Shown here: piece after piece, positions 756 through 39,100 of the stretch
Layout of the letters: each line of letters opens with the position of its first letter
Position numbering within the stretch: position 1 is the first letter of the stretch
Source of the DNA: Rugalucina vietnamica
Lineage: Eukaryota > Mollusca > Bivalvia > Lucinida > Lucinidae
Length of the DNA: 64,000 nucleotides
Assembly: GCA_964017185.1 (NCBI GenBank)
Contig: OZ024876.1
Coordinates: forward strand, 990,001 to 1,054,000
Direction of reading: 5' to 3'
Notes under the pieces: generated by a model
What the model saw: the letters and a program-made list of their open reading frames with translations, nothing else
The model's database searches: none
What the model was told of the DNA's origin: nothing
Program-made: the position numbers and the translations under genes

Positions 756-983
756 GTTTTCAGCAACAGTTGACCTACATGCACAGTGATGGGGGATACA
801 GTGCATTTGGTACGGCTGATGATTACAGCTCCACATGGCTCAGTGCTTTTGTCTTCAAGACCTTCCGGCAAGCCCTTGAGTTTATATACGTAGATCGTAA
901 GCAGATACAGACCAGAACCTGGGAGTTTCTGATAACCAAACAAGGGGAGGACGGCTGCTTTAATGAAGATGGAAAGGTTTTGG
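756..983 (+). CDS. A2M-like exon 1 of window (thioester domain)
   Basis: The acceptor ends CCACCACAG at 755. One base carried from the previous exon completes a Gly codon, then FQQQLTYMHSDGGYSAFG. The donor is G|GTAGGT at 984, with one base left over. The YMHSDGGYSAFG...STWLSAFVFKTFRQA stretch is the alpha-helical thioester domain just after the active site in A2M. Confidence 0.93.
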
Positions 984-3900
984 GTAGGTTAACAAAGAAT
1001 GCTATTCTGCATATTTCTTATCATAAATCCAGTTGTAAAAATTCTGTCCCAACATGACTGAAAAATTGTTGACTGGGATGTTAAGCCTCAATACAAACAA
1101 ACAAAACCAGTTGTAAAAAATGGTCTTGCCCATCCTTATCATTTTAGTGAGTCCATTTTCATATTTAGGGATATCAGGAGTTATTTTGAATTAAGTGGTA
1201 CATAAACAATGGCAGCATGTTAATGAAAAAAATTAACATAATCTTAAACTTGTTTTTTTTTTTCAGGCAAATACATGCAGGGTGGTGTAGTGAGTAGTAA
1301 GGAAAGCAAGCGGCGGGCTTTAACAGCCTATATTCTGGTGGCCATGTTGGAGTCGTTCAAAATGATGAAGGAAAAAACTCCTGTAAGTATGCTACTCCCC
1401 TCCATGCTTGTTTGGTACAATATTATGGGTTCTGGATCTTTTAACCTACTTGTATCACCTACTTGCTAATTGAGCCTTTGTGTGAGAAAACACAACCTGA
1501 ATGTTCTACCAGGCCCAACACAAACTAGGCTGTACAGCCACAGCAGCAGGCTAGAAGCTTGAAATTTCAGATTTAGAAGGAAGAGACATTGTACTGTATA
1601 TAGGATGAAAACACAGATCAGCGCCTTTGTTTTCGCCTATGCATGTTGATGGCTTTCTTATGCGGCAGCTCAATTGAGATTGTCAATGTCAATCTGTCTG
1701 TGCATTCAAGCCTTTAGCAGTGCTGTATTGCAGGGATATCATTCCACACAATGAATAGAAAATTGAAGCTGAGACTCCATGGCTTCAAGTTTATACTGTA
1801 TGGACTAGGCATGTGTTATGTAACATATCAGTTTTAACATACCATAATCAGTGTTTTCTTTTAACAAGTATAAGCTTTAACAAAAAGCTTGGTCTACGCT
1901 TCGCATATATAAACTAGAATGTCAAAGAATCTGACCGTACTCCCATTTCATCGTGGTGCATTTGACTGAACAGAAATAAAACGCTGCGCGGTGAAAGCAT
2001 CTGTACCTGACAATCGACCGTCACAATACTGTCGGTTCATTTCATTCCGTTGTGGCTTGGATAGAATGTAATTGGCTACACGGCTGGTGGCGCAGGGTCA
2101 AAGCTTTCATACCTGACCATATAGCGTCACAATACCGTCGGTTCATTTCATTCCGTTGTTGCTTAAGATAGAATGCAATCATGCACTAGTTTCACGAATT
2201 TAACAATTTGCCCCATTTTTGGTACCTACTGCACCATTGGTACAAATGTTACCAACCAAAGGGAGGTTTGCATGGGTGTTTGGGGGTGTTTACACAGTCC
2301 TTGGCGAAACGACCCGGAATCCTACTAACACGATGGTCAAGCCACTAGACTCCAACGTGCAGATGCAGTTGTAGAGAGGTGTATGAGTTGTCTTGTAAGT
2401 AGGTCAATCTCAAACCTTAGAGTAGTCTACGCGCTGGCGCGTAGACAATAAGAGGCAGCTAGAAGCCAAATTGAATGTCTCAAACTATTTTCTGGCCCAA
2501 TGCTTCTGTTGCCATTAAAATATACAGCCATGTTAAGAAATTTATGACGTCAAACACTTCCGGGGCCAGTTGTTCAAAATTAATAATGTCGAAAGTTAGC
2601 AATTTGTTAAAATTTCAAATGGCAATATCTCAAAAACACTGCTATTTTTTGTTGAATAAATGTGAGAATTCTTCGCATTACAAAGGATTCTCACATTTTT
2701 TCAACAAAATTAACAGTGTATTTGCTTTTATAGTCAATATATAGTTAACAAATTGAGAGCTTAACAACAGCGTTAAGCTATCAGAGTTTTGAACAACTGG
2801 GCCAAGGCCTCGTGCAAAATTTCTTTATGAAAATTTTGTGGTGAAATTCTTTTTTTATTTCTTCCTCTTGCAGCCATTCATAGCTCTATCAGTGAAGTGT
2901 ATAGAGGTGGAGAATTTGACAGATATTTACACCCTGGCTCTAACAACCTACGCCATGACCCTGTATAAACCTACCAGTACTTTTACTCATGCTCTGATAG
3001 AGAGGCTTAAACACACAGCTGTTATTGAAGGTAAATGAGCATTCGCGTATGAAAACAAACAGTCTGGGTTTACGACCAGGTCCGACATAAACTAGGCTGT
3101 GCAGCAATAGAAAATAGTTAGAAGCTTTAAATTTCAGATTTAGAAGAGGCATCATACTATATGTTGAGAGAAAATAAAGATGCTGAACTGCGGTTCTAAC
3201 ATGTACCCACAATCTATGTTTTGAGCAAAAATAAGAGAAATATCAAAGATTATCTACAAACTGATCATTTTTTGTGCACATGAAAAAAATTTCCATACAT
3301 TGCATGGGCAAGTTTTGTTAAGTTTGATGAAGAAGAATTTTTCCAGATGAATTGATGTACTGGCAGCGAGACACAACTTCAACAACCAGACAACACAGCG
3401 TTCCCTCGGCCGAGATAGAGATCACATCATATGCCCTGCTAGCCTTGTTGACGAGAGATAAATATGCCCCTATCAACAATGTAATGCCGATAGTGAGATG
3501 GTTAACAAAACAGAGGAATGCATATGGTGGCTTTACATCCACACAGGTTAGATTGACATTGAGCCACGGCATGAGAAAACCAACAATGGTTTCTGAACAG
3601 GTGCAACACAAACCTGTCTGTGCAGTCACAGAAGATGGCTTGAAGCTTGAAAGTGGATTTAGTAAGAAGAGGAATTGTACTATCTGTGAAGGGAAAACAA
3701 ATCACTGATCAGCTTTGCAGTTACTCATGATGCTAATCCATTGTTTTAAAGGTGTTATGATATTCTGATTTTACATCCCAGTCAACAATTTTTCAATCAT
3801 GAGTTGTATCATCCGAAGCCCACTAATTAATATCAGACAGGTTTTCTTATGTCACTGTAAATTGGGAAATGTATGTGAGAACTTAATTTTTGTGATTATT

Positions 3901-6900
3901 CGCGAGTTCAGTGTCTTGCGAGTTCAAGGTTCTCACTTATAAGAATCTCTATAGGCCATATAGACTGCACTAACACTCGTTTGAGAATTCAAAACCTCGC
4001 AAATATTTCGAAATTAGAAAATTCACGAAATAGAAGTCAAGCAAAAATTTCCAAATTTACTGTATCTCATGCTTTTATATGCTTTATTTGTGTAGGACAC
4101 AGTAGTAGGTCTACAAGCCTTGGCTGTGTTTGCTGAGAGGGTGTATGGTCGAGGGCTGGATGTTACAGTTAACATTGAGTCAGTGGTGGGGGAGAGGGTA
4201 GACTTCCTAGTGACTCAGCATAATAGGCTACGACTACAACAGCATGTCCTTAAACATCCCGACTCACAACTACAGATCACGGCTAACGGAGAAGGATGTA
4301 TATTGCTGCAGGTATGTCCTGAAACATCCCGACTCACAACTACAGGTCACGGCTAACGGAGAAGGATGTATATTGCTGCAGGTATGTCCTCAAACATCCC
4401 GACTCACAACTACAGGTCACGGCTAACGGAGAAGGATGTATATTGCTGCAGGTATGTCCTCAAACATCCCGACTCACAACTACAGGTCACGGCTAACGGA
4501 GAAGGATGTATATTGCTGCAGGTATGTCCTCAAACATCCCGACTCACAACTACAGGTCACGGCTAACGGAGAAGGATGTATATTGCTGCAGGTATGTCCT
4601 CAAACATCCCGACTCACAACTACAGGTCACGGCTAACGGAGAAGGATGTATATTGCTGCAGGTATGTCCTCAAACAACCCGACTCACAACTACAGGTCAC
4701 GGCTAACGGAGAAGGATGTATATTGCTGCAGGTATGTCCTCAAACATCCCGACTCACAACTACAGGTCACGGCTAACGGAGAAGGATGTATATTGCTGCA
4801 GGTATGTCCTCAAACAACCCGACTCACAACTACAGGTCACGGCTAATGGAGAAGGATGTATATTGCTGCAGGTATGTCCTCAAACATCCCGACTCACAAC
4901 TACAGGTCACGGCTAACGGAGAAGGATGTATATTGCTGCAGGTATGTCCTCAAACATCCCGACTCACAACTACAGGTCACGGCCAATGGAGAAGGATGTA
5001 TATTGCTGCAGGTATGTCCTCAAACACCCCGACTCACAACTACAGGTCACGGCTAACGAAGAAGGATGTAAATTACTGCAGGTATGTCCTCAAACAACCC
5101 GACTCACAACTACAGGTCACGGCTAACGGAGAAGGATGTATATTGCTGCAGGTATGTCCTCAAACACCCCGACTCACAACTACAGGTCACGGCTAACGGA
5201 GAAGGATGTATATTGCTGCAGGTATGTCCTCAAACATCCCGACTCACAACTACAGGTCACGGCTAATGGAGAAGGATGTATATTGCTGCAGGTATGTCCT
5301 CAAACATCCCGACTCACAACTACAGGTCACGGCTAATGGAGAAGGATGTATATTGCTGCAGGTATGTATGTTATGAATTGTGCCACTTCATCATGATGAA
5401 ACTGGCTTTTGGCATATGCGAAAACAAAGGTGCAGATCAGCTGTGCAGTAAATGCACAGCTCAGTAACTGCACAGCTCAGTAACTGCACAGCTCAGTAAC
5501 TGCACAGCTGATCAGTGCACCTTTGTATTCCTTACACATCTAGTACTATCCTTCTTCTTCTTAAATTCTAAATTTCAAGCTTCTATCCTCACTCTAGCTG
5601 CACAGGTCCATTTGTATCAGACCTGGTCAGTAAACAAGAAGACTAGTTTTCTCGCATCACAGCTCAATTATCAACTGTACAGGCCATATTTTAAGATCTT
5701 TATGGCTATCTCCAAGCTAGTCCCTCCTTAGTTTTCTGTTTACATCATGAGGCATCTCATTCAATTCTAGGGGAATGTGGTGGGGTAGTGGTAGAGCATC
5801 ATTCTCTTAATTGAGAGGTCCTAGGTTTCTATCCCTACTTCACTGGCAGCACTATTTTCAGTTCTTGAGCATGATGTATTCACATTAACAATGAGAATTT
5901 GTTAATATCCAGGAAGCAGTGGCTCCATGCCGACATGACTTGAAAAATTGTTGACTGGGATGTTAAACCTCAATACAAACAAACAAACAAACAAATCATT
6001 TGGTTGTATACAACATAAACTCTAAATAAAGAAGTCCTGGGCCCAGTTGTTCAAAACTTTGTTTGCTTATTTAAAGCTGTTGTTAAGCCCTCAACTTGTT
6101 AGCTATATATCAACTTCAAAAGCAAATACCACTGTTATTTTTGGTTGAAAAATGTGAGAACGCAAAGGATTCTCACATTCTCACATTTTTTCAACAAAAA
6201 ATAAGTGTATTTATTATAACCATTTGAAATTTTAATGAATCCTTAACTACCGACATTGTTAATTTTGAACAACTGGACCCTGGCTATGAACTGCACAGGG
6301 GCTGGGTTATGTCCTTGAACAAGATACATTAACTAATCATTTCAGGTTTGCCATGGTCAGGCAAATAAAGTCTGGAAAATGAAGTTTTTTCCAGGTCAAG
6401 GAAATTTAGTCAGAGATTTTTATTTTGAGTCAGTGAAAATTGCAAAAGTGGAGAAAGTCATGGAAAAGTCAAGGAATTTAAAAATTTATTTGTGCATAAA
6501 TACCTGTGTCACACGATATTAACAGCCGTTTATTAATGAAGAGAATGCCATGCATTAATATTGCAATTCACGCGCGCACATGCTGTTAATACATGGCTTT
6601 TACTTATGCTCATTACCGGGCGCCACACAAAGCCTGTGCTAGTAATGAGAAACTGAAGTCCGCCCGGAACGAGCACAAAAACGAAAGTTTTTACGTGTAT
6701 GAAAATGTGACGAGGCTGTAAAATATAGTGCACCATATTTCTTTCGTTTTTGCACCTTATTTCTTTCGTTTCTGCAGAATTCATGCAATAATAGCGATCA
6801 AAAATGATTTTGTCATTCATTAACATTCGCAAGGTCCCTTGGCTGCGCCCTCGGTTTTCAACACTCCTCTCGGGACCTAGCGAATGTTAATGAATGGAAA

Positions 6901-9900
6901 ATCATGTTTGATCCCTATATTGAAAAGTGATGTTCTTTGGCAATGTATCAATTTGTGAAATCTATTCCTTTTGAAAGTTAGATGACTTTCAGGGTCTAAG
7001 AATTTCCCAATCGGTATTCAATGCTTCGCCTTAAGCGTAAACATACCTTTTTCTGTATCCAACTTTTTTCAGTTCATTTTTATACCTATTTGTATTGCCT
7101 GCATGCTAAGATAGGTGATCTCAGGAATGGGCAACATCAACTTGTCAGAGAGTGTAATAACCCCCACCTTATATCATTAACAAAGGGAGTGGAGAGGCTG
7201 ATAAAAGGGTCTGGAAAAAAGTACAAGTAGGCAAAGATCAGGAAAAGGCGCAATCAGAAAAAGACTCCCACTCCAAAAACCAAGGTGGGAAAAAACCAAA
7301 CTGACAATCAGGTACTTATACCATGAAAACATTTCGTAAGCCGAATGAGCAGCTATTTTCCCAATAGGTGGCTACTCAGTTACCTTAACTTAACTAAAAA
7401 TATGCAAACATACATAAGGCGCCAACAGCACAAAAATATTTTAAACACCAAGACATAAAACAAAAAGAACCACCACAGAAGTATCGACTTGGAACGATCA
7501 GTAACACAAAGTTACTGGCGGCTTTAAATCGATTTTACACGGCCGTAACCTCACCCTCAGCTTCTGCAGTGGTTCATAACATTTAGTTAGTTCTTCGAAA
7601 ACTGTTTAAAGTCAGAAAGTCATGGAATTTTGAAATACAAAAGGAGTTGAAATCCTGCACAGGGTTCTGGATAGTACTCAGGAATATGGTAGCTGTGTCA
7701 TGACATGACTGAAAAATGGTTACTGTTATACTGATGAAGAAGAGGCTTTTAAAACTCTTACATTACGAAAACTTGCCCATGCAATATACAGAGATTTTTA
7801 TACCCCCCGCAAAACGAAGTTTTAGGGGGGTATACTGTTTTCAGCCTGTCCGTGATTCCGTGATTCCGTCATTCCGTGATTCCGTCATTCCGTCATTCCG
7901 TCATTCCGTCAACATTTGGACATCTTTGCTGAATAACTTGAGTAGCTTTTGCCTGATCTGTTTCAAATTTTCACCACACTTGCACCATCAGACAATACAT
8001 GTGTGGTATGAATTTAGGGGCCAAAGGGTCAGTATTGCAAGAGTTATGGGACTTTTTAAGTCTTCCTATAACATGTTTGCCATAGTACTGAAAGTACATA
8101 CTTTGTGAAATCAACTCCTCTTACAGCTTTCAATGTTTCCTTTTAATATTTTGCTGATATGTTTCAGATATATTGCAGATGTGCATGAACAATTGTGATG
8201 CTGAAAAAATCATTTTTGACAAATTTACAGCATTTTTAACTTAGCAAATTTTCTATAATTGCTTATATTCAATAATGGTTGGTAGTGCATACTTTGTGAA
8301 ATCAACTCCTCCTAGGGCTTTCAGTGTTTCTTTTCAGTACTTTGCAGACATGTTACAGACATATTGAAGATGTGCATGAAGAATTATAATGCTGAAAAAA
8401 TAATTTTTGACAAATTTACAGCATTTTTTAACTTTGCCATTTTTCGACTATTGCTTACATACATACGTTGTGAAATCAACTCCTCCTAGGGCTTTCAGTA
8501 TTTCTTTTCAGTACTTTGCAGACATGTTATAGACATATTGAAGATGTGCATGAAGAATTATAATGCTGAAAAAATATTTTTTGACAAATTTACAGCATTT
8601 TTTAACTTTGGCATTTTTCGACTATTGCTTACATACATACTTTGTGAAATCAACTCCTCCTAGGGCTTTCAGTATTTCTTTTCAGTACTTTGCAGACATG
8701 TTACAGACATATTGAAGATGTGCATGAAGAATTATAATGCTGAAAAAATAGTTTTTGACAAATTTACAGCATTTTTAAACTTAGCCATTTTTCGACTATT
8801 GCTTACATACAATAATGGATGGAAGTGCATACTTTGTGAAATCAACTCCTCCTAGGGCTTTCATTGTTTCTTTTTAATTCTTTGCAGATTTGTTCCAGAT
8901 ATATTGAAGATGTGCATGAAGAATTTTTATGCTGAAAATTTTAGTTTTGACAAATTTACAGCTTTTTAAACTTAGCCAATTTTGACCATTTCTGCTTATA
9001 TTCAATTATGGTTGATAGTACATACTTTGTGAAATCCAACTCCTCCTGGGGCTTTCAGTAATTCTTTTCAATACTTTGCAGACATGTTACAGACATGTTG
9101 AAGATGTGCATAAAGAATTTTATTGGTGAAAAAATATTTTTTGACAAATTTACAGCATTTTTCAACTTAGACATTTTTCAACCATCGCTAATATACAATA
9201 CGGCTGGTAGAGCATACTTTATGAAATCAAGTCCTCCTAGTGCTTTCATTGTTTCATTTGAATTCTTTGCACACTTGTTCCAGATATATTTCAGATGTGC
9301 ATGAATAATTCTTATGCTGAATAATTTATTTTTGACAAATTTACAGCTTTTTTTTAGCATAGCCAGTTTTTGACCATTTCTCATGATAAATAATGATCAA
9401 CAGTGTACAGTGAAATCAACAATAATTTTACTCCCTGAGCTTTCAGTATATTATTTAATACCTTACAGACATGAGTCAGACATACGGAGGATTTTCATGA
9501 AGGATTATAATGCTGAAAAGATATTTTTGACAAATGTTTTGCATGTTTGACTTAAAGGAAGTTATTAGCCTTAGATAATTTTGCGGGGGGTATACTGAAA
9601 GCCTTGCTTGCAGCCAATTTCTAGTTTTTTCACTTGTAAAAATTGAAAATTTCATCAGAAAAATTTTGATTTTTTGGGGGTATTTTAACTCAAAACATTG
9701 ATTGTGAGGCGGTTCTAAGGCGGTTCTAACAAGTCCCCACAATCCATGTTTTGGAGCAAAAATAAGAAAAATAGGTTTACCCCTGAATACCCCAGATTTG
9801 CTATATAAAAGTGGGGTATAAGGGGGTATATATTACAGGGTCATGTTTTCCTGATGACTACTAAGTAATCATACAGTGAAAATTGAGTTGACAAATCTGA

Positions 9901-12900
9901 GTATTTGCTCGACTTGTACCACATTAGAATTACTTGTCTGTGTTATGTATACTCCTACTTGTCTGTGTTATGTATACTCCTTACACCCCAGTTTTAGATA
10001 GTGACAATGAACATTTTGAGCTCACCTGTTTTCAGACTACCTACAGATACAATATACTGACCAAGGTTCTCCCTGAGTCTGGCTTCTATATCTCCATAAC
10101 GACCCCAGTTACAAGAGACATACTCGATAACAACTGCAGGTCAAGAGATCTGATTGTCTGCACAAGGTTTGTATATGAGCCTTCACATGAGAAAACTAAC
10201 AGTCTGAGCTTTGGACCAGGTCCAACACTAACCAGCTTGTACAGTAACAGAAGCAGGTTAGAAATGTGAAATTACAGATTTAGGAAGAAGTGGCATCATA
10301 TTATCTTTGGAGCGAAAACAAAGGCACTGATCAGTTTTTCAGTTACTGTGTCTTTGTTTTTGCCTATGCATGTTGTTGGTTATCTCATACGGTGGCTCAG
10401 TCATGGTATGTAGAAATATTATAGTCAAAGTCCAATGACGTCACATTACATACTCACAGATTACATTCTTAAAACCAGAAGATTTTGTCATAGTAAAGCT
10501 CAAACAGTCAATCTGCTCTATCTGATGGACATACGATACCTTATTACATATAATCGTCCGCGTAATTATACTGAGGTAACAGGCTACTAATGGTACAAAG
10601 GCTACGCTGAGCATAGGCCTTAAATTGGAAATGAGTTTTCCTGAGAATCCTATTTCTCCATTCCCTGTGGAGTTTCTAATCTCATCGGACATTTAGTTTC
10701 CTGAACTGCAACTTTTTAATAAAGGGCCTGTCGCACACTAACAAGTTGAAGCTACGACATGCTACGAGTGGTACGAGTTATAAGTCGGCGCTTGTCGCGC
10801 GAGTTGCCATGAGTTAAGTTGAAAAAAATTAGAAGCTGTCACACAGTCACAAGTTGAAGCTACGACATGTTACGAGTTAGCTCAAATCGCACGAGTTGCT
10901 ACAAGTTATAATGTCCTACATGACATTCCTTTGATATAAGTCATGGAAACTCGTGGATACTTGTTGGAATGTCGTAGTTAACTCGCGAGATGTCGTAGCA
11001 ACTGGCGAGAAGTCGCCTTGAATATTGTAGCAACTCGTAGGTAACTTGCCATATTTGACAAGACGCCGACAACGCATGACATCCCATGACATTACTACGA
11101 GTTCTGTATGATGTGCTACGATATCAGTACGACTTATGCTCCGCCCATGCCCCGCCCACTTTTAGACGGTGAGTTGCTATGAAAATTTTAAACCATTTAA
11201 AATTCTCGTAGCCTTTCCACGACAAGCTACACGTTGCTATGAGTTGAGAAGACTTGTGTATGACAACCGCCAACACATGACATTTGTACGAGTTCACCAA
11301 AAATGTGGGCAGAGCATAACTCGTAGCTCCAACTCGTGAGTGTGTGACAGGGGCTTAAAAAAATGTTAAATATTTTTCTAACTACATGTTTTTTGTAAAC
11401 GTGACAACTACAAACAATAGCATACACTTATTCATAGCATATTTTGGGATACAGATTTGAATAAGTCATTCGACTTCTTTCTGGATCCCATTAGTATCCC
11501 ATGCTTGTATTCTTGTCTATTTGTACTGCTTTACTGTTATACGAATTGTGCAAATGAAATAAAGGTTAAACCAATGACATATCACATTCACAAGTGGAGC
11601 GGTGACATCACAGCTCGAGTTGGTGACCTAGACCCCTGTATGCCCGTTTACTACATGAGCCAGGCCATGAGAAAACCATTTGTGCTCATATGAGAAAACA
11701 AAGTGCAGATCAGCTGTGCAGTAACTGCACAGCTGATCAGCACCTTTGTTTTCACTACACAGATAGTACAATTCCTCTTCTTCCTAAATCCAAAATTTCA
11801 AGCTTTTAGCCATCTTCAGTCTGTAGCTGCACAGGCAGGTTTGTGTCAGACCTGATCAGAAACCCCAAAGACCAGTTTTCTCTCATCTCAACTCACATAA
11901 AATTGGGAAATAAGAGGGTTTACATTTCAGAGACATGATTTCCTGATTCTACTTGTAGATACACAGGACCAGATCAGGCCTCGGCTATGTCAGTTGTGCA
12001 GGTCAATATGGTCAGTGGCTGGATCCCGGATGTAAGCTCACTGCGCAGTCTGATCAACTCCAGTGATATAGCGGTGAAGAGATATGACATAGACTGGAAA
12101 CAACCAGATCAGCTCAACTTCTACTTTGATCAGGTAATATGTGCAGCCCCACCAGAACACAAACAATCTGCATCTATATATATATATATGCAAAACGAAG
12201 GATGCAGATCAGTGCCTTTCTTTTCGCTTCAAGGATAGCACAATTCCTCTTCTTTCTAAATCTAAAATTTACAGCCTCTAGCCATCTCCTGTGCTTGTAC
12301 AGCTGAATTTGTGTCAGACCTGTTCAGAAGCCACAATCTTTGTTTTCTCAAGATGTGGCTCATATGTGCTGCGATATGAGAAAACTGGGCTTCAGGGTTT
12401 TCAATCAGGTCTGCCACAAGCAAGCCTCTGTAGCCACAGCTTTAAATTTCCAATTTAAAAAGAATAGGGATTGTAGTTACGAAGTGAAAACAAAGGTGCT
12501 GATCAGTAGTGCAGTTACTGCACAGCTGATATGCATCTTTGTTTTCCTGTCGGCAAAAAATCTGTTTATTTGTTTTTTTTATTACATACAATTTAACCCA
12601 CAGTGGAGGGTGGGGGCTGATCTAGAATTTCTTAAAAGGGAAATTTCACAAATATTTTACTTTCACCAGATTTTCCCTTGAATTTCCCAGTAAATATTAT
12701 ACAGTAGAAATCCCCGAATCGGCCACCTTTATAAGAGCTCCACCTTCGTAAGAGCGCCAGTTCAAACATTCCCGACTGCTTTCCCTATAAAATGTCTCTT
12801 TATAAGAGCGCCACCTCGGTATAATCGCCATCGGCCAGTTTTTACATTCCCAAAACGCCAATTGTTCTTCATAAGACGGCCGCATTATTACCTGAGCAAA

Positions 12901-15900
12901 TCTCCAATTATCAATAATGATCCATAATCGTTGATCAACCACAAAGTTTACAAAACAATCCAATCACGTCGGCGTAAACGTGTGAAATTGTTATTGTGTC
13001 TAAAATACCTTGGGGGGAAAAACCTGTTGTCCTTGGCTACACACTCACGCGAAGTCTCGCATAATCTCGTGTGTAGTTGTTTTATTTTGGTTTCATTCAT
13101 TGAAGACACATATCATGTTTTTGGGCCAAAAATCAAATCGGTAAGTAATTTTGCGATCTCTGATTATCAATCGATTCCAAAATATGTAATTCCAACTTTT
13201 CATCCGAATGCGGAATCCTGGGCCGAACTCCCTGCGATGCGAAAATCGCGTCGGAGTTTCGTCTTTTTTGTCTGTGAAAAAACAATTGATCAGTGATTTG
13301 TGGCGATCGTATGGAACATTAAGGGGTTTTGATATGATTTGTGAGTTTTGCGCTGCGAAATATGCTTGTATATGAACCTTTTCCCATTTTTTACGCGATC
13401 GGAGCGTGAAATATGGAGTGTTTCGGCCTTGTTAAATTCTGTCATTAAAAACTGCACAAGTACAAAATTGCTGCAAAAAGCATCCAATATGAAGGCGTTG
13501 CAAAAAAAAAAAAGAAAAAAAATGTCCAGGTACAAAATTACTGCAAAAAAAAATATGCCCAGGTACAATGTTTTAAATGTTTTGATGTTTTAAATACCAT
13601 TGTTAAAATATGCATTCAGATATTGGAAAATGGTGATATTATTTTGCCATATGCTGGCCTTTCTGACTGACCCTTGATAAGACAGCCACCTGTGTATAAC
13701 AGCCAGTTTAGCTTACTCCCAAAGGTGGCGCTCTTATAGAGGTTTGACTGTAGTATTTGGTTCCAGGATGAGATTTGAGCATACCTGCTCTTAACCTATC
13801 ACTGTTCAACAGAGACCTTCTTGAGTGGACAGTTTCTTATGTGGTATTCATATTTCTTGCACACCAGATAGAGAAATTCTATGATTTACCCTGTGTGAGA
13901 AATTCTTTTCTTGCACACCAGATAGAGAAATTCTATGATTTACCCTGTGTGAGAAATTCTTTTCTTGCACACCAGATAAAGAAATCATATGTTCTACCCT
14001 GTGTGAGAAATTCTTATCTCACCCTTGTTATCATACCCCAGGTGCACTACTTCTCGTGTTCCTTATTATACCCCCCGCAAAACGAAGTTTTAGGAGGGTA
14101 TACTGTTTTCAGCCTGTCCGTGATTCCGTGATTCCGTGATTCCGTCAACATTTGGACATCTTTGCTGAATAACTTGAGTAGCTTTTGCCTGATTTGTTTC
14201 AAATTTTCACCACACTTGCACCATCAGACAATACATGTGTGGTATGAATTTAGGGGCCAAAGGGTCAGTATTGCAAGAGTTATGGGACTTTTTAAGTCTT
14301 CCTATAACATGTTTGCCATAGTACTGAAAGTACATACTTTGTGAAATCAACTCCTCTTACAGCTTTCAATGTTTCCTTTTAATATTTTGCTGAAATGTTT
14401 CAGATATATTGCAGATGTGCATGAACAATTGTCATGCTGAAAAAAATCATTTTTGACAAATTTAAAGCATTTTTAACTTAGCAAATTTTCTATAATTGCT
14501 TATATTCAATAATGGTTGGTAGTGCATACTTTGTGAAATCAACTCCTCCTAGGGCTTTCAGTGTTTCTTTTCAGTACTTTGCAGACATGTTACAGACATA
14601 TTGAAGATGTGCATGAAGAATTATAATGCTGAAAAAATAATTTTTGACAAATTTAAAGCATTTTCTAACTTTGCCATTTTTCGACTATTGCTTTAATACA
14701 TACATACTTTGTGAAATCAACTCCTCCTAGGGCTTTCAGTATTTCTTTTCGGTACTTTTCAGACATGTTACAGACATATTGAAGATGTGCATGAAGAATT
14801 ATAATGCTGAAAAAATAATTTTTGACAAATTTACAGCATTTTTTAACTTTGCCATTTTTCGACTATTGGTTACATACATACTTTGTGAAATCAACTCCTC
14901 CTAGGGCTTTCAGTATTTCTTTTCAGTACTTTGCAGACATGTTACAGACATATTGAAGATGTGCATGAAGAATTATAATGCTGAAAAAATAATTTTTGAC
15001 AAATTTACAGCATTTTTTAACTTAGCCATTTTTCGACTATTGGTTACATACATACTTTGTGAAATCAACTCCTCCTAGGGCTTTCAGTATTTCTTTTCAG
15101 TACTTTGCAGACATGTTACAGACATATTGAAGATGTGCATGAAGAATTATAATGCTGAAAAAATAATTTTTGACAAATTTACAGCATTTTTTAACTTAGC
15201 CATTTTTCGACTATTGCTTACATACAATTATGGTTGGTAGTGCATACTTTGTGAAATCAACTCCTCCTAGGGCTTTCATTGTTTCTTTTTAATTCATTGC
15301 AGATTTGTTCCAGATATATTGAAGATGTGCATGAAGAATTTTTATGCTGAAAATTTTAGTTTTGACAATTTCGACCATTTCTGCTTATATTCAATTATGG
15401 TTGATAGTACATACTTTGTGAAATCCAACTCCTCCTGGGGCTTTCAGTAATTCTTTTCAATACTTTGCAGACATGTTACAGACATATTGAAGATGTGCAT
15501 AAAGAATTTTATTGGTGAAAAATAATTTTTGACAAATTTACAGCATTTTTCAACTTAGACATTTTTCAACCATCAATAATATACAATACGGCTGGTAGTG
15601 CATACTTTATGAAATCAAGTCCTCCTAGTGCTTTTATTGTTTTATTTGAATTCTTTGCACACTTGTTCCAGATATATTTCAGATGTGCATGAAGAATTCT
15701 TATGCTGAATAATTTATTTTTGACAAATTTACAGCTTTTTTTTAGCATAGCCAATTTTTGACCATTTCTCATGATAAATAATGATCAACAGTGTACAGTG
15801 AAATCAACAATAATTTTACTCCCTGGGCTTTCAGTATATTATTAATTATATTATCAGAAATACGGAGGATTTTCATGAAGGATTACAATGCTGAAAAGAT

Positions 15901-18900
15901 ATTTTTGACAAATTTTCTGCATGTTTCACTTAAAGGCCTTTAAGTTATTGGCCTTAGATAATTTTGCGGGGGGTATACTGAAAGCCTTGCTTGCAGCCAA
16001 TTTCTAGTTAACATTGGTTGTATAGGATGTGACGTAACTTGGTTGTTAAGCGTACACGTCACGAAGATGTCAGAAACTTTTCTGTTTCAAAATGGAGGCC
16101 GTGATTGCAGTGTTTTTTTTTTCAATGTAAATGCTATGAATATCAAGCATCAGTGTATAAAGGCATGCAAGATTAAGAATCTATCATGCGTGTCAGGGAT
16201 GGATAGACAAATCTGTGCAAACCTCGGGTCACAGTTTTGCATCACTTGGCGAGCCTCATAATGCCAAAGTGACCCTCGGGACAGATTTGTCTATCCATTC
16301 CTGACACTCATGTAAGATTCTTATAATCATCAAATGAGAGATGAAAACCTGACTTAGGGTTTTCCCACCAGGTCTGACTCAAGCCAGTGAATAGTCACAG
16401 AAGAGGGTGTAAGACTTGAAATTTCAGATTAGAGATGAAGAGGGGCTGTTACTATTGGCTTAGCAAAAACATTATGAAAATTTGCCCTTGCAATATACAC
16501 CTGGACCTCTTTATAACATGCTTCCTTGCAACACGATTTTGGATATAACACTGATCACTGTTGGACCCCAATTGCTCATTTCAGATTATTTTTGCTTTAT
16601 ATCTATACATTTAACTCTCGTTATAACATGGTTTGGATAGCTAACATGGAAATTGGCCTGGACCCCAACTGATATTTTTGATATTATTGCTCAAAATGAG
16701 GCGGTTCTAACAAGTACCCACAATCTATGTTTTGCATCAAAAATAAGAAAAATAGGGATACCCCTCCTACCCCAGTTTTGCTATATAATAGTGGGGTTCA
16801 AGGGGGTATACATGTCAGGGACATGTTATCCTGATGGGTGCTGATTGGCTGTGCAGTCCCTGTAAAACCACAATGATCCTTGTGTAGCCATAATTTTGTT
16901 TTCAGATTTCTCCGGAAGACCTCTGTTTTGCCTTCAGTGTTGTCTTGGAAACAAGAGTAACCAATCAACAGCCAGCACTAGCTAAAGTATTTGAGTACTA
17001 TGAGTCCAGTAGGTATTACTTGTTTCCTTTCCAAATCATTTTTAAACTATGTTTATAATTTACTGTTAAGTAAACTATGCTTTATTTGGGTCCATTGCAG
17101 ATTGATGATATGGTAAGAGTTATCTCACAAGGAAACCAAATTTTTCATATGCGAAAACAAAGATGCAGACCAGCTGTGCCGTTACTGCACAGCTGATCAG
17201 CACCTTTGATTTCGCTAACAGATAGCACAATCCCTCTTATTAAATACAGAGGTTTAAGCTTCTAGCCATCTTCTGTGTTCACACAGGCTGATTTGTGTCA
17301 GACCTGGTCAGAAACCCTGAAGACGGGTTTTCTCGCTTTGTGGCTCATGTTATCTTTGTAACCACAGTGGCATACCTCTAGTCAAATCACCCGTTCTTCA
17401 GTGACTAATGGCATATAATCGTTTAACAGTGAGCAGTAAAATTTGTGACAAAAACCCAAGACAAACAAGTCGCCTCGTGGGAAAACCAACAATTTGGTAT
17501 CCAACCAGGTCGGACACAAATCAGGCTTCACAGTCACAGAAGCAGACTAGAAGCTTGGAATTTCGGATTTAAGAAGAAGAGGAATGGTACTATCCATGTT
17601 GCGAAAACAAAGGCGCTGATAAGCTTCGCGGTTACCGCGAAGCTGATCTGCGCCTTTGTTTTCGCATATGCAGATTGTTGGTTTTCTCATGAGGCGGCTC
17701 AAATGCAGGTTATTATACTTAACCAGAGAAGAGAGTTAACACTTTTTGTTTGTATCCTACTCGTAAGAAACCTATCCTAGAACTAAAGACTAATGTTTAT
17801 TTGAATATCAGGAGAACAAAGACAATTCCTATAGAAAATTCATTAATCAAACTTCAAACATGAGGTTACGAGGTCAAAAATGGCTTTTTATACCCCGCCA
17901 CTTAAAAAAGTGCGGGTACCCTCCCAAAAAAATTGCGTTTGAGTGTCCGTCCGTCTGTCCGTCCGTCCGTCCGTCTGTCCGTCCGTCCGTCAGCGTTTCG
18001 TTTCCGGGCTCTATCTTGAGCATTTATTGACCGATTTTCTTTAAACTTTGTATAGGAGTTCATATCAGGAAGGAGTGGTTTGGGATTGAAGATGGGTAAA
18101 TTTCGTCAAATAAGTACAGAGTTATGGCCCTTGATTTAAGTTAAAATTTTGTTTCCATGCTCTATCTTGAGTATTTATTGACCGATTTTCTTCAAACTTT
18201 GTATAGGAGTTCATACCATGAAGGAGTGGTCTGGGATTGAAGATATGTAAATTCGTCAAATAAGTGCAGAGTTATGGCCCTTGATTTACGTTAAAATTTC
18301 ATTTCCGGGCTCTATCTTGAGCATTTATTGACCGATTTTCTTCAAACTTTGTATAGGAGTTCATATCAACAAAGAGTGGTCTGGGATTGAAGATGGGTAA
18401 GTTTCGTCAAATATGTACAGAGTTATAGCCCTTGATTTACGTTAAAATTTTGTTTCCGGGCTCTATCTTGAGCATTTTATTGACCGATTTTCTTCAAACT
18501 TTGTATAGGAGTTCATATCAAGAAGGAGTGGTCTGGCATTGAAGATGGGTAAATTTCGTCAAATATGTACAAAGTTATGGCCCTTGATTTACGTTAAAAT
18601 TTTGTTTCCATGCTCTATCTTGAGCATTTATTGACCGATTTTCTTCAAACTTTGTATAGGAGTTCATATCAAGGAGTGGTCTGGGATTGAGGATGGGTGA
18701 ATTTCGTCAAATAAGTACAGAGTTATGGCCCTTGATTTACGTTAAAATTTTGTTTCCGGGCTCTATCTTGAGCATTTATTGACCAATTTTCTTCAAACTT
18801 TGTAATGGAGTTCATACTAGGAAGGAGTGATTTGGGATTGAAGATGGGTAAATTTCGTCAAATAAGTACAGAGTTATGGCCCTTGATTTACGTTGAAATT

Positions 18901-21900
18901 TTGTTTCCGTACTCTATCTTGAGCATTTATTGACCGATTTTCTCCAAACTTTGTATAGGAGTTGAGAGGTTTGGGATTGAAAACGAATAAATTTCGTTAA
19001 ATAAGTACGGAGTTATGGCCCTTGATTTACGTTAAAATTTCGTTTCCTGCCTCTGTTTTGTGCATTTATCAACCAATTTTCTTCAAACTTTGTATAAAAG
19101 TTCAAATCAGGAAGTAGTGGTTTGGGATTGAAGATGGGTACATTTTATGGATGTATACAGAGTTATGGTCCTTCATTAATTTCAAAATTTTGTTCTGCTC
19201 TTTATCTTGAGAATTTATTGACAAACATTTTTGCTAAATTAAATTTGCATGGCGGGGTATCATGCATGCCTGCACCGCTTTTATTTGACATTTTCTGCCC
19301 ATCAGGAAAACATGTCCGTGTAATGTGTACCCCCTTGAACCCCACTTTTATATAGTAAAACTGGGGTATGTAGGGGTATACCTATTTTTCTTATTTTTGC
19401 TCCAAAACATAGATTGTGGGTACTCGTTAGAACCGCCTCGCCGAGGTGGTTCTAACGTGTACCCACAATCTATGTTTTGAGCAAAAATTAGAAAAATATC
19501 AAATTTTTTCTACTTAAAATTTTCATTTTTTACTACTTTAAAAATTTATGTATATTGCATGGGTGTGTTTTCGTAATGCCTGGGTGTTGGAATAAACTTT
19601 TTTCATGTCAATAATGCCAATACCAGTGTTGACAAAAGTGTACTTTAACATTTTGCAATTGCTTACTGTAGTGTTTGATGTCAGTTGTTGACGTCATGAT
19701 ATACATATGGGCCAACAAACTGCATAGGCGAAAACAAAGGGGCAATTCCGCTTCGCAGTAACTGCAAAGCTGATCAGCGCCTTTGTTTTCGCTACTCGGA
19801 TTGTACAGTTCCTCTTCTACTTAAATCCGAAATTTCAAGCTTCTAGCTCTTTTCTGTGACTGTACAAGTCGGTTTGTGTCGGACCTGTTCGGAAACCACA
19901 TTGTTGGTTTTCCCACGAGGTGGCTCATATGGTTCTGATGGAGGTGGCTAAATATTTGTTTTATTGTTATTTAATATTATACTATAGTTCTCTTCTACTT
20001 AGGTCCAATATTTCAAGCTTCTAGCCGTTTTCTATGACTGCTCAGAACGGTTTCTGTCCGACCTGGTCAGAAACCCTAAGACCAGTTTTCTTGAGCAATG
20101 GCTCATTTATAGGTATAAAAGCCATATTTTCGTAGGTCTAGAAGCCACGTCTGTATATTCAGGATATTTTTGTAGGTCTAGAAGCCATGTGTCTGTATAT
20201 GCTGGATATTTTTGTAGGTCTAGAAGCCACATGCCTGTATGAGCTGTCTGAGTGTTCAGAAGAGGCTCTGGTACTTCCAGACAACAACCTGGCTGACACA
20301 GACCTGTATCTTGAGAGTCCTGACCTTGAGAATCACACTACATTGACCTTGGACCAAGGTGTGTTTAATCCTCAGATTAATTTTTGACACTTTTTTTTGC
20401 AATTTTAACTTAGTCATTTTTGCTGACATTTTGACAATGAAAGTGAATGGACAGTGGGTACCTTGTGCAAGCAACTCCTCCTACAGTTATATTCAGATTC
20501 TTTTGAAACTTTACAGATGTCTTGACCATGCTTTGAAGATATGCATGTGATTTGGATATAATCCTCAGATTAATTTTTGACACTTTTTTCGCAATTTTAA
20601 CTTAGTCATTTTTTCTGACATTTTGACAATGAAAGTGAATGGACAGTGGGTACCTTGTGCAAGCAACTCCTCCTACAGTTATATTCAGATTCTTTTGATA
20701 CTTTACAGATGTCTTGATCATGCTTTGAAGATTTGCATGTGGTTTGGATATAATCCTCAGATTAATTTTTGACACTTTTTTCGCAATTTCAACTTACTCA
20801 CTTTTTCAACATTTACACAATGAAAGTGAATGGACAGTGGGTCCCTTGTGCAAACAACTTCTCCTACAGTTATATTAGGATTCTTTTGAAACTTTACAGA
20901 TGTCTTGACCATACTTTAAAGATATGCATGTGGTTTGGATGTATTCCTCACTTTAATTTTTGTCACTTTTTTGAAATTTGAACTTAAGTCATTTTTCAGG
21001 CATTTACCCATACACTAAGAAAGTGTATGTGGTTTGGATATATGTTATTCTAAGATTATATTTGTGTAACTAAACTATCAAGGCGGGGGACATAAATTCT
21101 CTGAATTTGCTTGTTCTAATATAAAAGGCACAAAAATGCTTTAAATTGCATGGTGTCTACGAGCCGCTTGACAGGATGAAAAAAACATGTTACGCCTTGA
21201 TCAAAACGCAACTGACCGCATCAGAACGTAACAGGCCGTAACAGAATGTGCTAATAATCGTGATAGATTGTGGATAATCGTAACGTTCCTTAGTGCCTCC
21301 ATGACACACCGGCTTATTACTACCACGGTTTGTTACAGGTATCGTAATCCAAGGTAAGAAAACGTAACAAGACGTAATAGATCTTGAAAAAACAGAGAAA
21401 TATATGACCAAAATTCCACGGTACGCTACGGGGACATAGTGTAAACGCAGTATTAAGAAAGGCCTCATATAAATCCAGGACGAACATTTATCCTTTGGAT
21501 ATTTCAGCCACAGTACAGACAGAATCAGAGCTTGGAGAGAATGATGCACCTCATGGTGCCGATGTTGCCCCTGCCCCCCGTTTAGATCCCGCCTGTCCCC
21601 TCTGTGTTACCACGGGAACTGTCAATGTCCTACAGGATATATGCCTTAAACAAGGTACAGTAATTTCCTGAAACTGTTGAACTGTAGCCAAATACACCTT
21701 AAAATACTATGTCATCAAGGGTTGCCAAGTTTTCAAACTGAATAAGAGCAAAATTTTGTCGGTGCATGGTCCATCAGTGTCGCTATGCTCGATAGATGGA
21801 CGTCATGGAGCTTGGTCCATTGATGTCACATTACACAATTAGGCAGATGGCTGAAAATTTTGACAAATTACAGCCATTTTCTGCATCATCCCAAAATCAA

Positions 21901-36100: not shown

Positions 36101-39100
36101 CATAGCTATCCCCCACCCTCCCCAGGCCTGGGGGGGCCATGGTTACAAATGACTAGTGCATAATGGTACCAATCACCTACCTGCAGTATCCTTTGTTTCT
36201 TGACTCTTGTAATTTTCATATCTCTTCCTGTTAGCATCATTTAGTGAGGATTTTTTCTGTTTCAGCAACTTGTATTTTGAGAGGTAGGCAGCATTGATAC
36301 CGTCTATGAACTTGTTTATCTGGTCATAGGTTATCCTGCCTTTCAGATATCTGAAATTAGCATTGATGTTTAACTGACTCATCAGGAAAACATGTGCATG
36401 AAATGTATACCCCTCAGATCCCACTTTCAGGCTGTCAACCAAGTCTTCTAAAAAATATAGGAGTTTATATAGGATTTTTTTCTAAGAAATATAGGAGGTT
36501 TTAGCTAATTTTGAGGAAAAATATAGGAGTTTTCTCGTGAAAATCGCTTCATTCTATGCTCTTATACTAACAATCCTTACCTTCACAGTTCACACTCACT
36601 TTTTCCACATTAATTAATGTCTAAAATATCTAGATAAAGTAACCATTCAGTTCCACATCAACACAATCCAGACAGGTGACCATTCATGTGATGATGAAGT
36701 GTGCTGAAGCATTATGCAGGATGGTGATACTACACAGGCCCATTAGCTGACTCTCAGAATACAAAGGCATTCTGTTGGCATGCAAACAAAGGCTTTTTCA
36801 TTGAAAAATATATATACAGAGAATAAAGCGAAGATTAAGGTCACCTTTTTAGCTCACCTGAGCCGAAGGCTCACAGGTGAGCTTATAGTATACCCATGCT
36901 CCGGCGTCCGTCGTCGTCCGTCGTCGTCCGTCGTCCGTCGTCCGTCGTTCACAATTTCAAAGATCTTCTCCTCTGAAACCACAAGGCCAATCGAAGCCAA
37001 ACTTCACGTGGAGCATCCTTAGGAAGGGGGAACGAAAGTTTGTATAAATGGTCCAGGTCACATGACCAAGATGGCTGCCATGGCTATAAATAGCAAAAAC
37101 CTTTAAAAATCTTCTCCTCCAGAACCAGAAGGCCTATGATTTTGAAACTTGGCATGAAGCATCAGGCAATAGAGCTCTACAAAGTTTGTATAAATCATGA
37201 CCCTGGGATGACCTTGACCTTTTCTACGGCAAGGTCAACTTAGGCCGCCCAAGCATTTGAATGGGAAAAAGTAGAAAAATGTCATTTAGTGGCAGAAAAC
37301 TTGCTAGGAATGAGCAAATGGACAGAATATTCATGTTTATGAAAATATTTTGGGCCCAGAGGGTTGTCTGCCCCTGCCCCGGTGCTATATACATGTGTAT
37401 GACCACAATATTCAAACATCTTCTTCTCTGAAACCGCTTGGCCAATCAAAGCCAAACTTTATGTGGAGCATTCTTAGGAAGAGTGAATGAAAGTTTGTAT
37501 AAATGGTCAAGGTCACATGACCAAGATGGCCGCCATGGCTATAAATAGCAAAAACCTTTAAAAATCTTCTTCTCCAGAACCAGAAGGCCTATGATTTTGA
37601 ACCTTGGCATGAAGCATCAGGCAATTGAGCTCTACAAAGTTTATATAAATCATGACCCTGGGATGACCTTGACCTGTTTTACGGCAAGGTCAACTTAGGC
37701 CGCCCATGCATTTGAATGGGAAAAAATAGAAAAATGTCATTTAATGGCAGGAAACTTGCTAGGAATGAGCAAATGGACAGAATATTCATGTTTATGAAAA
37801 TATTTTGGGCCCAGAGGGTTGTCTGCCCCTGCCCCGGTGCTATATACATGTGTATGACCATAATATTCAAACATCTTCTTCTCTGAAACCGCTTGGCCAA
37901 TCAAAGCCAAACTTTATGTGGAGCATTCTTAGGAAGAGTGAATGAAAGTTTGTATAAATGGTCAAGGTCACATGACCAAGATGGCCGCCATGGCTATAAA
38001 TAGCAAAAACCTTTAAAAATCTTCTTCTCCAGAACCAGAAGGCCTATGATTTTGAAACTTGGCATGAAGCATCAGGCAATGGAGCTTTACAAAGTTTGTA
38101 TAAATCATGACCCTGGGATGACCTTGACCTTTTTACGGCAAGGTCAACTTAGGCCGCCGATGCATTTGAATGGGAAAAAATAGAAAAATGTCATTTAGTG
38201 GCAGAAAACTTGCTAGGAATGAGCAAATGGACAGAATATTCATATTTATGAAAATATTTTGGACCCAGAGGGTTGTCTGCCCCTGCCCTGGGGCTATATA
38301 AATGTGTATGACCATAATATTCAAACATCTTCTCTGAAACCGCTTGGCCAATCAAAGCCAAACTTTATGCGGAGCATTCTTAGGAAGAGTGAATGAAAGT
38401 TTGTATAAATGGTCAAGGTCACATGACCAAGATGGCCGCCATGGCTATAAATAGCAAAAACCTTTAAAAATCTTCTTCTCCAGAACCAGAAGGCCAATGA
38501 TTTTGAAACTTGGCATGAAGCATCAGGCAATGGAGCTTTACAAAGTTTGTATAAATCATGACCCTGGGATGACCTTGACCTTTTTACGGCAAGGTCAACT
38601 TAGGCCGCCGATGCATTTGAATGGGAAAAAATAGAAAAATGTCATTTAGTGGCAGAAAACTTGCTAGGAATGAGCAAATGGACAGAATATTCATATTTAT
38701 GAAAATATTTTGGACCCAGAGGGTTGTCTGCCCCTGCCCTGGGGCTATATAAATGTGTATGACCATAATATTCAAACATCTTCTCTGAAACCGCTTGGCC
38801 AATCAAAGCCAAACTTTATGTGGAGCATTCTTAGGAAGAGTGAATGAAAGTTTGTATAAATGGTCAAGGTCACATGACCAAGATGGCTGCCATGGCTATA
38901 AATAGTAAAAACCTTTAAAATCTTCTTCTCTAGAACCAGAAGGCCTATGATTTTGAAACTTGGCATGAAGATCAGGCAATGGAGCTTTACAAAGTTTGTA
39001 TAAATCATGACCCTGGGATGACCTTGACCTTTTTTACAGCAAGGTCAACTTAGGTTGCCCACGCATTTGAATGGGAGAAAATTGTTAGGGCAAAACTTGC

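Follow-up and report, generated by a model that had tools for sequence, protein, structure and literature searches.

Tandem arrays of splice donors at exon borders of a predicted alpha-2-macroglobulin gene in the bivalve Rugalucina vietnamica

A minisatellite whose every unit repeats an exon's 3' end and the donor that follows it was found in a predicted alpha-2-macroglobulin (A2M) gene of Rugalucina vietnamica; its presence in the DNA sequence was confirmed as real and far beyond chance. A second donor array and a short acceptor array were located in the same gene. The explanation preferred here, with moderate confidence, is that these are minisatellites born of tandem duplication and tolerated through use of the outermost splice site, with leakage into decay-prone transcripts.

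The host gene and donor array 1

The window, by which the whole analysed stretch of 64,000 bp is meant, represents C8:990001-1054000 of an assembly of 1.09 Gb in 47 contigs. The part of the gene within it spans 756..23428 on the forward strand, and its exon borders were placed by hand from AG/GT and the reading frame:

756-983, 1267-1382, 2874-3030, + strand: exons 1-3 of the C-terminal half of the A2M gene
3347-3546, 4096-4311, 10036-10166, + strand: exons 4-6
11959-12133, 16906-17008, 20218-20358, + strand: exons 7-9
21508-21654, 22283-22417, 23287-23428, + strand: exons 10-12

The 12 window exons, joined at AG/GT borders, give an open frame of 629 codons which closes at a stop. The Pfam families TED_complement (PF07678, 1.1e-68) and A2M_recep (PF07677, 2.8e-20) were detected in the window model, MG3 (PF17791, 1.3e-21) and MG4 (PF17789, 1e-6) were detected upstream of the window, and the thioester stretch PTGCGEQN was present in the upstream pieces of the gene. 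MG domains, TED with the thioester stretch and a receptor-binding domain follow one another in the order of the A2M family, and the nearest solved proteins were alpha-2-macroglobulin-like 1 and alpha-2-macroglobulin. Judged from its predicted protein, the host gene is an A2M gene, nearest to bivalve proteins. It extends over ~50 kb with ~28 recognisable exons, 16 of which lie upstream of the window with approximate borders. The best protein match among those listed, P0050 (66% identity over 75% of the model), has 1,744 aa on a 5.7-kb contig and is therefore probably derived from a transcript. Further relatives among the matches listed were P0051 (50% identity) and proteins of Mactra antiquata (49%) and Dreissena polymorpha (45%); a Mya arenaria protein was 46% identical to the A2M model. 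Exons 4096-4311 and 10036-10166 are backed by the open model, the AG/GT borders, the Pfam domains and colinear relatives.

The C-terminal tail (CPLC..ENCRQC..W, encoded in 21508-23428) is conserved in Mya arenaria and matched no Pfam family at E 0.001. Elsewhere in the genome ~16 further A2M/TEP loci were recognised by grouping 52 PF07678 exon matches; these loci are on contigs C1 (eight loci), C2, C3, C5, C6, C8 (at 58.56M), C9 and C17.

The features of array 1 and its surroundings are as follows, with a bar in a motif marking the splice border:

4096..4311, + strand: founder exon of array 1, 72 codons, phase 0 at both ends, ending in NGEGCILLQ
4242..5361, + strand: donor array 1, 16 x 70 bp, exon end plus CAG|GTATGT in each unit
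4311|4312, + strand: first donor of array 1, the 3' border of exon 4096-4311
4354..4356, + strand: TAA stop, reached from any of donors 2-16 (15/15)
5362..5367, + strand: last donor, GTATGT with AT behind it, pairing best with U1 (-10.2 kcal/mol)
10036..10166, + strand: next exon, first residues TTYRYNIL, spliced to 4311 in the model

Tandem Repeats Finder reported array 1 at 4244-5367 with a period of 70, 16.1 copies, 97% matches, 0% indels and a score of 2136. When phased from GT to CAG it divides into 16 units of exactly 70 bp. The sequence-only reading had described 16 exact 70-bp copies; the unit length and number stood, but only 6/16 units (copies 3, 4, 5, 6, 8 and 10) are identical to the consensus, the other ten carrying 1-4 differences. 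Copy 1 (4242-4311) is exonic and has three differences from the consensus, one of them at the duplication joint. The further description of the minisatellite as built from the end of an exon and the adjoining 5' splice site was borne out by the anatomy of the units, as both the exon end and CAG|GTATGT are present in 16/16, giving a nine-base donor word common to all. When units 1-4 were used to search the genome, with the best candidates alone scored and very common words skipped, a match was returned at the array's own locus only.

Duplication origin and donor choice in array 1

On the exon side the array starts with CAGCATGTCC, on the intron side it ends with CAGGTATGTATG, and each joint between units reads CAGGTATGTCC. 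The joint CAG-GT-ATGTCC is fully accounted for by exonic CATGTCC and intronic GTATGTATG, and one tandem duplication at the shared ATGT would yield the start, end and joint sequences exactly. The only intron bases inside the unit are GT, while in the inner donors positions +3 to +6 derive from the exonic ATGT; for this reason we infer from the duplication joint that the last donor (5362-5367) is the ancestral one. A further trace of history lies in a codon that reads ATC (Ile) in copy 1 and GTC (Val) in copies 2-16. At this codon Val was found in 5/7 relatives (the four best included), Ile in 1/7 and Leu in 1/7. Since Val prevails in the relatives and copy 1 alone among the units has Ile, the older codon state seems to have been retained in the inner copies; array 1 would then be older than the Val to Ile change in copy 1, unless that change is a polymorphism.

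Seven relatives, taken from the top of lists that held 120 proteins of 3,757 matches, were aligned across the junction between the array 1 exon and exon 10036-10166, and all seven run through it without an insert. The first donor would thus be the one yielding the normal protein. From each of the later donors (15/15) VCPETSRLTTTGHG is added, followed by the TAA at 4354-4356. These results uphold the earlier claims that reading on into copy 2 meets a stop, that only the first donor gives full protein, and that downstream donors give a truncated one, a single stop being common to all 15. As the relatives lack an insert and the later donors lead to a stop, full-length protein would need the first donor, whether it is spliced at once or restored by excision of the units. 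Termination at 4354-4356 would cost the protein its receptor-binding domain and C-terminal tail, and because seven exons follow the stop-bearing exon, nonsense-mediated decay is expected.

The donors were also compared for strength. The calculated U1 pairing of the last donor (-10.2 kcal/mol) exceeds that of the other 15 array 1 donors (-8.3), and the 11 authentic donors of the window range from -5.4 to -10.0 kcal/mol. Local RNA accessibility was 0.0001-0.0011 for donors 1-15 and 0.0023 for donor 16, and 0.0002 to 0.1683 for 10 other donors in the gene. Masking of the later donors by RNA structure was rejected, as accessibility had no special value for the first donor.

Further splice-site arrays and the explanations considered

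Two further arrays of splice sites were located, one of donors and one of acceptors:

C8:970080-971248 (L008:80-1248), outside the window, 24 kb upstream: donor array 2, ~71 bp, 16.4 copies
20124..20240, + strand: acceptor array, ~42 bp x 2.8, with TTT(T/C)GTAG|GTCTAGAAGCC three times
20218..20358, + strand: exon 9, starting at the last of the three acceptors in the model

Array 2 belongs to the same A2M gene, at the end of the MG3 exon, because the Pfam domains MG3 and MG4 were recognised there. Its unit comprises the end of an exon coding ..CKPRLHLLVNVTEKNTG and 19 intron bases, and it presents 17 donors of the form CT(G/A)|GTAAACAT at spacings of 69-76 nt, with the last one 49 nt on. The joints read TG|GT in 16 copies and TA|GT in one, compared with CAGGT at each joint of array 1; the single CTA|GT donor pairs poorly with U1 (-1.8 vs -5.3). 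All six relatives that cover the MG3 junction cross it without an insert, and the frame read on past the first donor closes after three codons. Kinship of the two donor arrays was rejected, the best local alignment of their units being 6 bp with a score equalled in 368/500 shuffles. As the units are without similarity, arrays 1 and 2 arose independently. In the acceptor array the three acceptors lie before 20136, 20176 and 20218; the first would lead to a stop and the middle one would add 14 amino acids in frame, and 7/7 relatives match the last, without an insert.

Four arrays with a period of 20-140 and at least 8 copies occur in the 120 kb that surround the gene, and the donor arrays account for two of them. 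The probability that a random founding unit spans a donor is ~0.016, and that two of four do so ~0.0015, a post hoc estimate based on an approximate count of 27 donors. No array with a period of 20-145 and at least 4 copies was found in a 200-kb sample (20/20 10-kb pieces, all from C8), the 9 entries listed there having periods of 146-456. Arrays as such are dense in this region, occupying 12.3 kb within the 64-kb window and, in that sample, 29.3 kb.

Other repeats were observed in the region. A 455-bp satellite-like unit is present at 36956-39082 and at C8:981380-982610, in both places behind a TCCG-type simple repeat. A longer element has two copies (7801-9600 and 14065-16010) in two introns of the A2M gene, each containing a TCCGT(C/G)AT run with tandem units of 174 bp behind it. 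A dispersed MITE-like element (TGAGCC..CATGAGAAAACCAACA end) starts within ~25 nt past four donors of the gene (window 3570 and 10186; L007:9257; L008:4405), these being 4/12 of the strict end matches in 120 kb; the post hoc chance estimate of this placement, for 11 such ends, was < 1e-6. Elements landing directly behind donors may merit attention.

The preferred explanation would proceed as follows. A segment that began within the exon and took in two bases of the intron was presumably duplicated in tandem across the shared ATGT, the joint would have restored GTATGT behind each copy, and expansion would have led to 16 units. The spliceosome would act mainly on the first donor, 4311|4312, so that copies 2-16 are spliced out as part of the intron, leaving the protein as it was. 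When a later donor is chosen, as would happen at times, the transcript would gain a multiple of 70 nt together with the stop at 4354, and such leaked transcripts would probably decay or else encode a chain without the receptor-binding domain. A like event would have taken place independently at the MG3 exon, with an acceptor-side counterpart at exon 9. To the observed anatomy, stops, colinear relatives and second array, this account adds a presumed donor choice in the animal, presumed decay of leaked transcripts and presumed near-neutrality.

Use of the first donor with low leakage is favoured by the open frame, by the relatives and by the precedent reported for human IFI6. The near-neutral reading is supported by the variable columns of the units, which show no avoidance of the donor, as an absence of selection would lead one to expect. 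The exon would measure 216 nt via the first donor and 1,266 nt via the last, and exon definition could favour the former. Against use of the first donor stands the last donor, which lies nearest the intron and also pairs best with U1, and so does the local RNA accessibility, which does not set the first donor apart. By analogy, DOK7 may also speak against it: of two competing donors there the intron-proximal one is preferred, but it is also the stronger one, in the available part of the report (PMC5585400). That one gene should hold two long donor arrays of independent origin is, by a post hoc judgement, unexpected of a purely random process.

Regulated competition among the donors is the first alternative and an unlikely one. 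The near-equal donors would form a splice rheostat, unit number being under selection in a protease inhibitor; its output, an equally improbable proposition, would be the share of full-length A2M against a decaying or receptor-domain-less form. The coincidence of two unrelated donor arrays of 16-17 copies and an acceptor array in one gene favours this view, as do the truncation that follows each leaked choice in array 1 and the lack of a comparable array in the 200-kb sample of the same contig. The donor columns, however, gave no sign of selection. In 15 units per array (copy 1 of each and the truncated last unit of array 2 being excluded), 0/7 variable columns of array 1 lay among the 9 columns of the donor (chance probability P = 0.36), and 1/21 variable columns of array 2 fell within the donor, P 0.23. 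Selection on these columns was accordingly not significant, and the suggestion of the sequence-only reading that the conserved GTATGT may reflect selection on the donor was not sustained. In addition, 1/17 array 2 donors is weakened, and among the matches listed none of the 13 other A2M/TEP loci on C1-C6 coincides with an array of CAGGTANGT words.

In a broader version of the rheostat, all the splice-site arrays (16 + 17 donors and one acceptor array) would constitute a dosage device with unit number as a fast-mutating, selectable knob, which we doubt; that the arrays jointly set the share of transcripts escaping truncating splicing is as hard to credit. A weaker form holds that donor-anchored minisatellites may recur as a class across this genome. 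Over the whole assembly, three CAGGTANGT words spaced 40-70 nt apart gave 348 matches vs 143 for the pattern reversed, counts of overlapping matches rather than arrays, between which a few long arrays could account for the difference. The 100/348 matches listed were grouped by eye into 18 arrays. The pattern does not match the array 2 donor.

Recursive splicing is less probable again. Its ratchet sites juxtapose AG|GT within an intron, with a pyrimidine tract before the AG as a further feature. Array 1 would on this view be removed stepwise as 70-nt mini-introns, CAG|GTATGT being rebuilt at each step and the protein left intact. AG|GT does stand at every array 1 joint, the unit contains CTAAC with a branch-like A 25 nt before the CAG end, and joining unit to unit would leave the message unchanged. 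However, in the 18 nt before the unit AG the pyrimidine fraction is 0.44 with a longest run of 2, which ranks it at the 43rd percentile among the window's 3,610 AGs, whereas the gene's 12 acceptors average 0.69; the authentic acceptor at 3347 also has a fraction of 0.44, yet with a run of 7. A CTAAC-like word near an AG is estimated to be not rare by chance, and array 2 lacks AG|GT at 17/17 joints. The recursive-splicing layout proposed from the sequence was therefore weakly supported. Array 1 alone resembles ratchet sites in its AG|GT juxtaposition repeated in an intron, and differs from them in having no pyrimidine tract and in the crowding of its sites at the intron start.

That the gene is decaying or unused, so that splice-site damage is tolerated, is very unlikely; several splice-site arrays in one gene would fit such a state, but 629 codons are open in the window, PTGCGEQN and the MG3, MG4, TED and receptor domains are recognisable, and identity to P0050 is 66% over the aligned part. 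Least probable of all is an assembly artefact by expansion or mis-joining, for although near-identical repeats are a known hazard and the exact unit number of array 1 could be wrong, private and shared single-base variants are scattered among the array 1 copies, array 2 contains indel variants, and 1.09 Gb in 47 contigs suggests long reads.

Relation to known systems

Studies of how the spliceosome picks one of several similar donors usually rely on minigenes that carry two sites. A natural series is offered here, 16 donors sharing a nine-base word in one gene and 17 in an unrelated second array. A single choice in array 1 would give full protein, and the ancestral, best-pairing and intron-proximal donor would be a wrong one; if full-length protein is made, position must outweigh U1 pairing as well as proximity to the intron. 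With three splice-site arrays in a single gene, the question also arises whether certain genes readily undergo, or tolerate, tandem duplication at exon-intron borders.

Intron gain via tandem duplication is in print, to judge from the available parts of two reports (PMC4974935; PMC3629103). The duplications concerned (ATP2A1, fission yeast, potato RdRp) are described there as tandem duplications that, like array 1, lie at a splice border or span it and have AGGT within the unit, and the fission-yeast cases involve tandem 24-nt units (PMC4974935; PMC3629103). They differ in that here the donor of an existing intron has been multiplied, and the copies show no new intron between them. For human duplicated genes, the accessible portion of PMC2812944 reports internal tandem repeats at exon-intron boundaries, with repeat-retaining alternative transcripts. 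These are minisatellites at exon-intron borders as array 1 is; they represent variation between recent paralogs, with units of ~30 bp and 4 copies on average, compared with 70 bp and 16 here (PMC2812944, same portion). An earthworm metallothionein paper, as far as its available text goes, concerns repeats inside an intron. The literature results listed contained no mollusc splice-site minisatellite, which is not proof of absence, and no match for recursive splicing combined with a tandem repeat. From the source portions available, multi-donor minisatellites (IFI6), duplication-born introns and boundary repeats in human duplicated genes are known in print; the unit length and copy number, the dependence on the first donor and the presence of three splice-site arrays in one gene were not seen in the literature searched.

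A minisatellite with multiple splice donors was reportedly described in human IFI6 (6-16, G1P3) by Turri, Cuin and Porter in 1995 (Nucleic Acids Res 23:1854). A tandem array at the 3' end of an exon with a donor in every unit, the arrangement of the IFI6 type, was found here in 16/16 units of array 1 and with 17 donors in array 2. In IFI6 two downstream repeat units are used as donors, giving three mRNA species, according to the available part of PMC4526556; on the same partial source, IFI6 and array 1 share an exon-intron border minisatellite whose units serve as splice donors, a role that is predicted from sequence in the present case. Unlike IFI6, the present case is in an invertebrate A2M gene, the later donors of array 1 all truncate, and two unrelated donor arrays are joined by an acceptor array in one gene.
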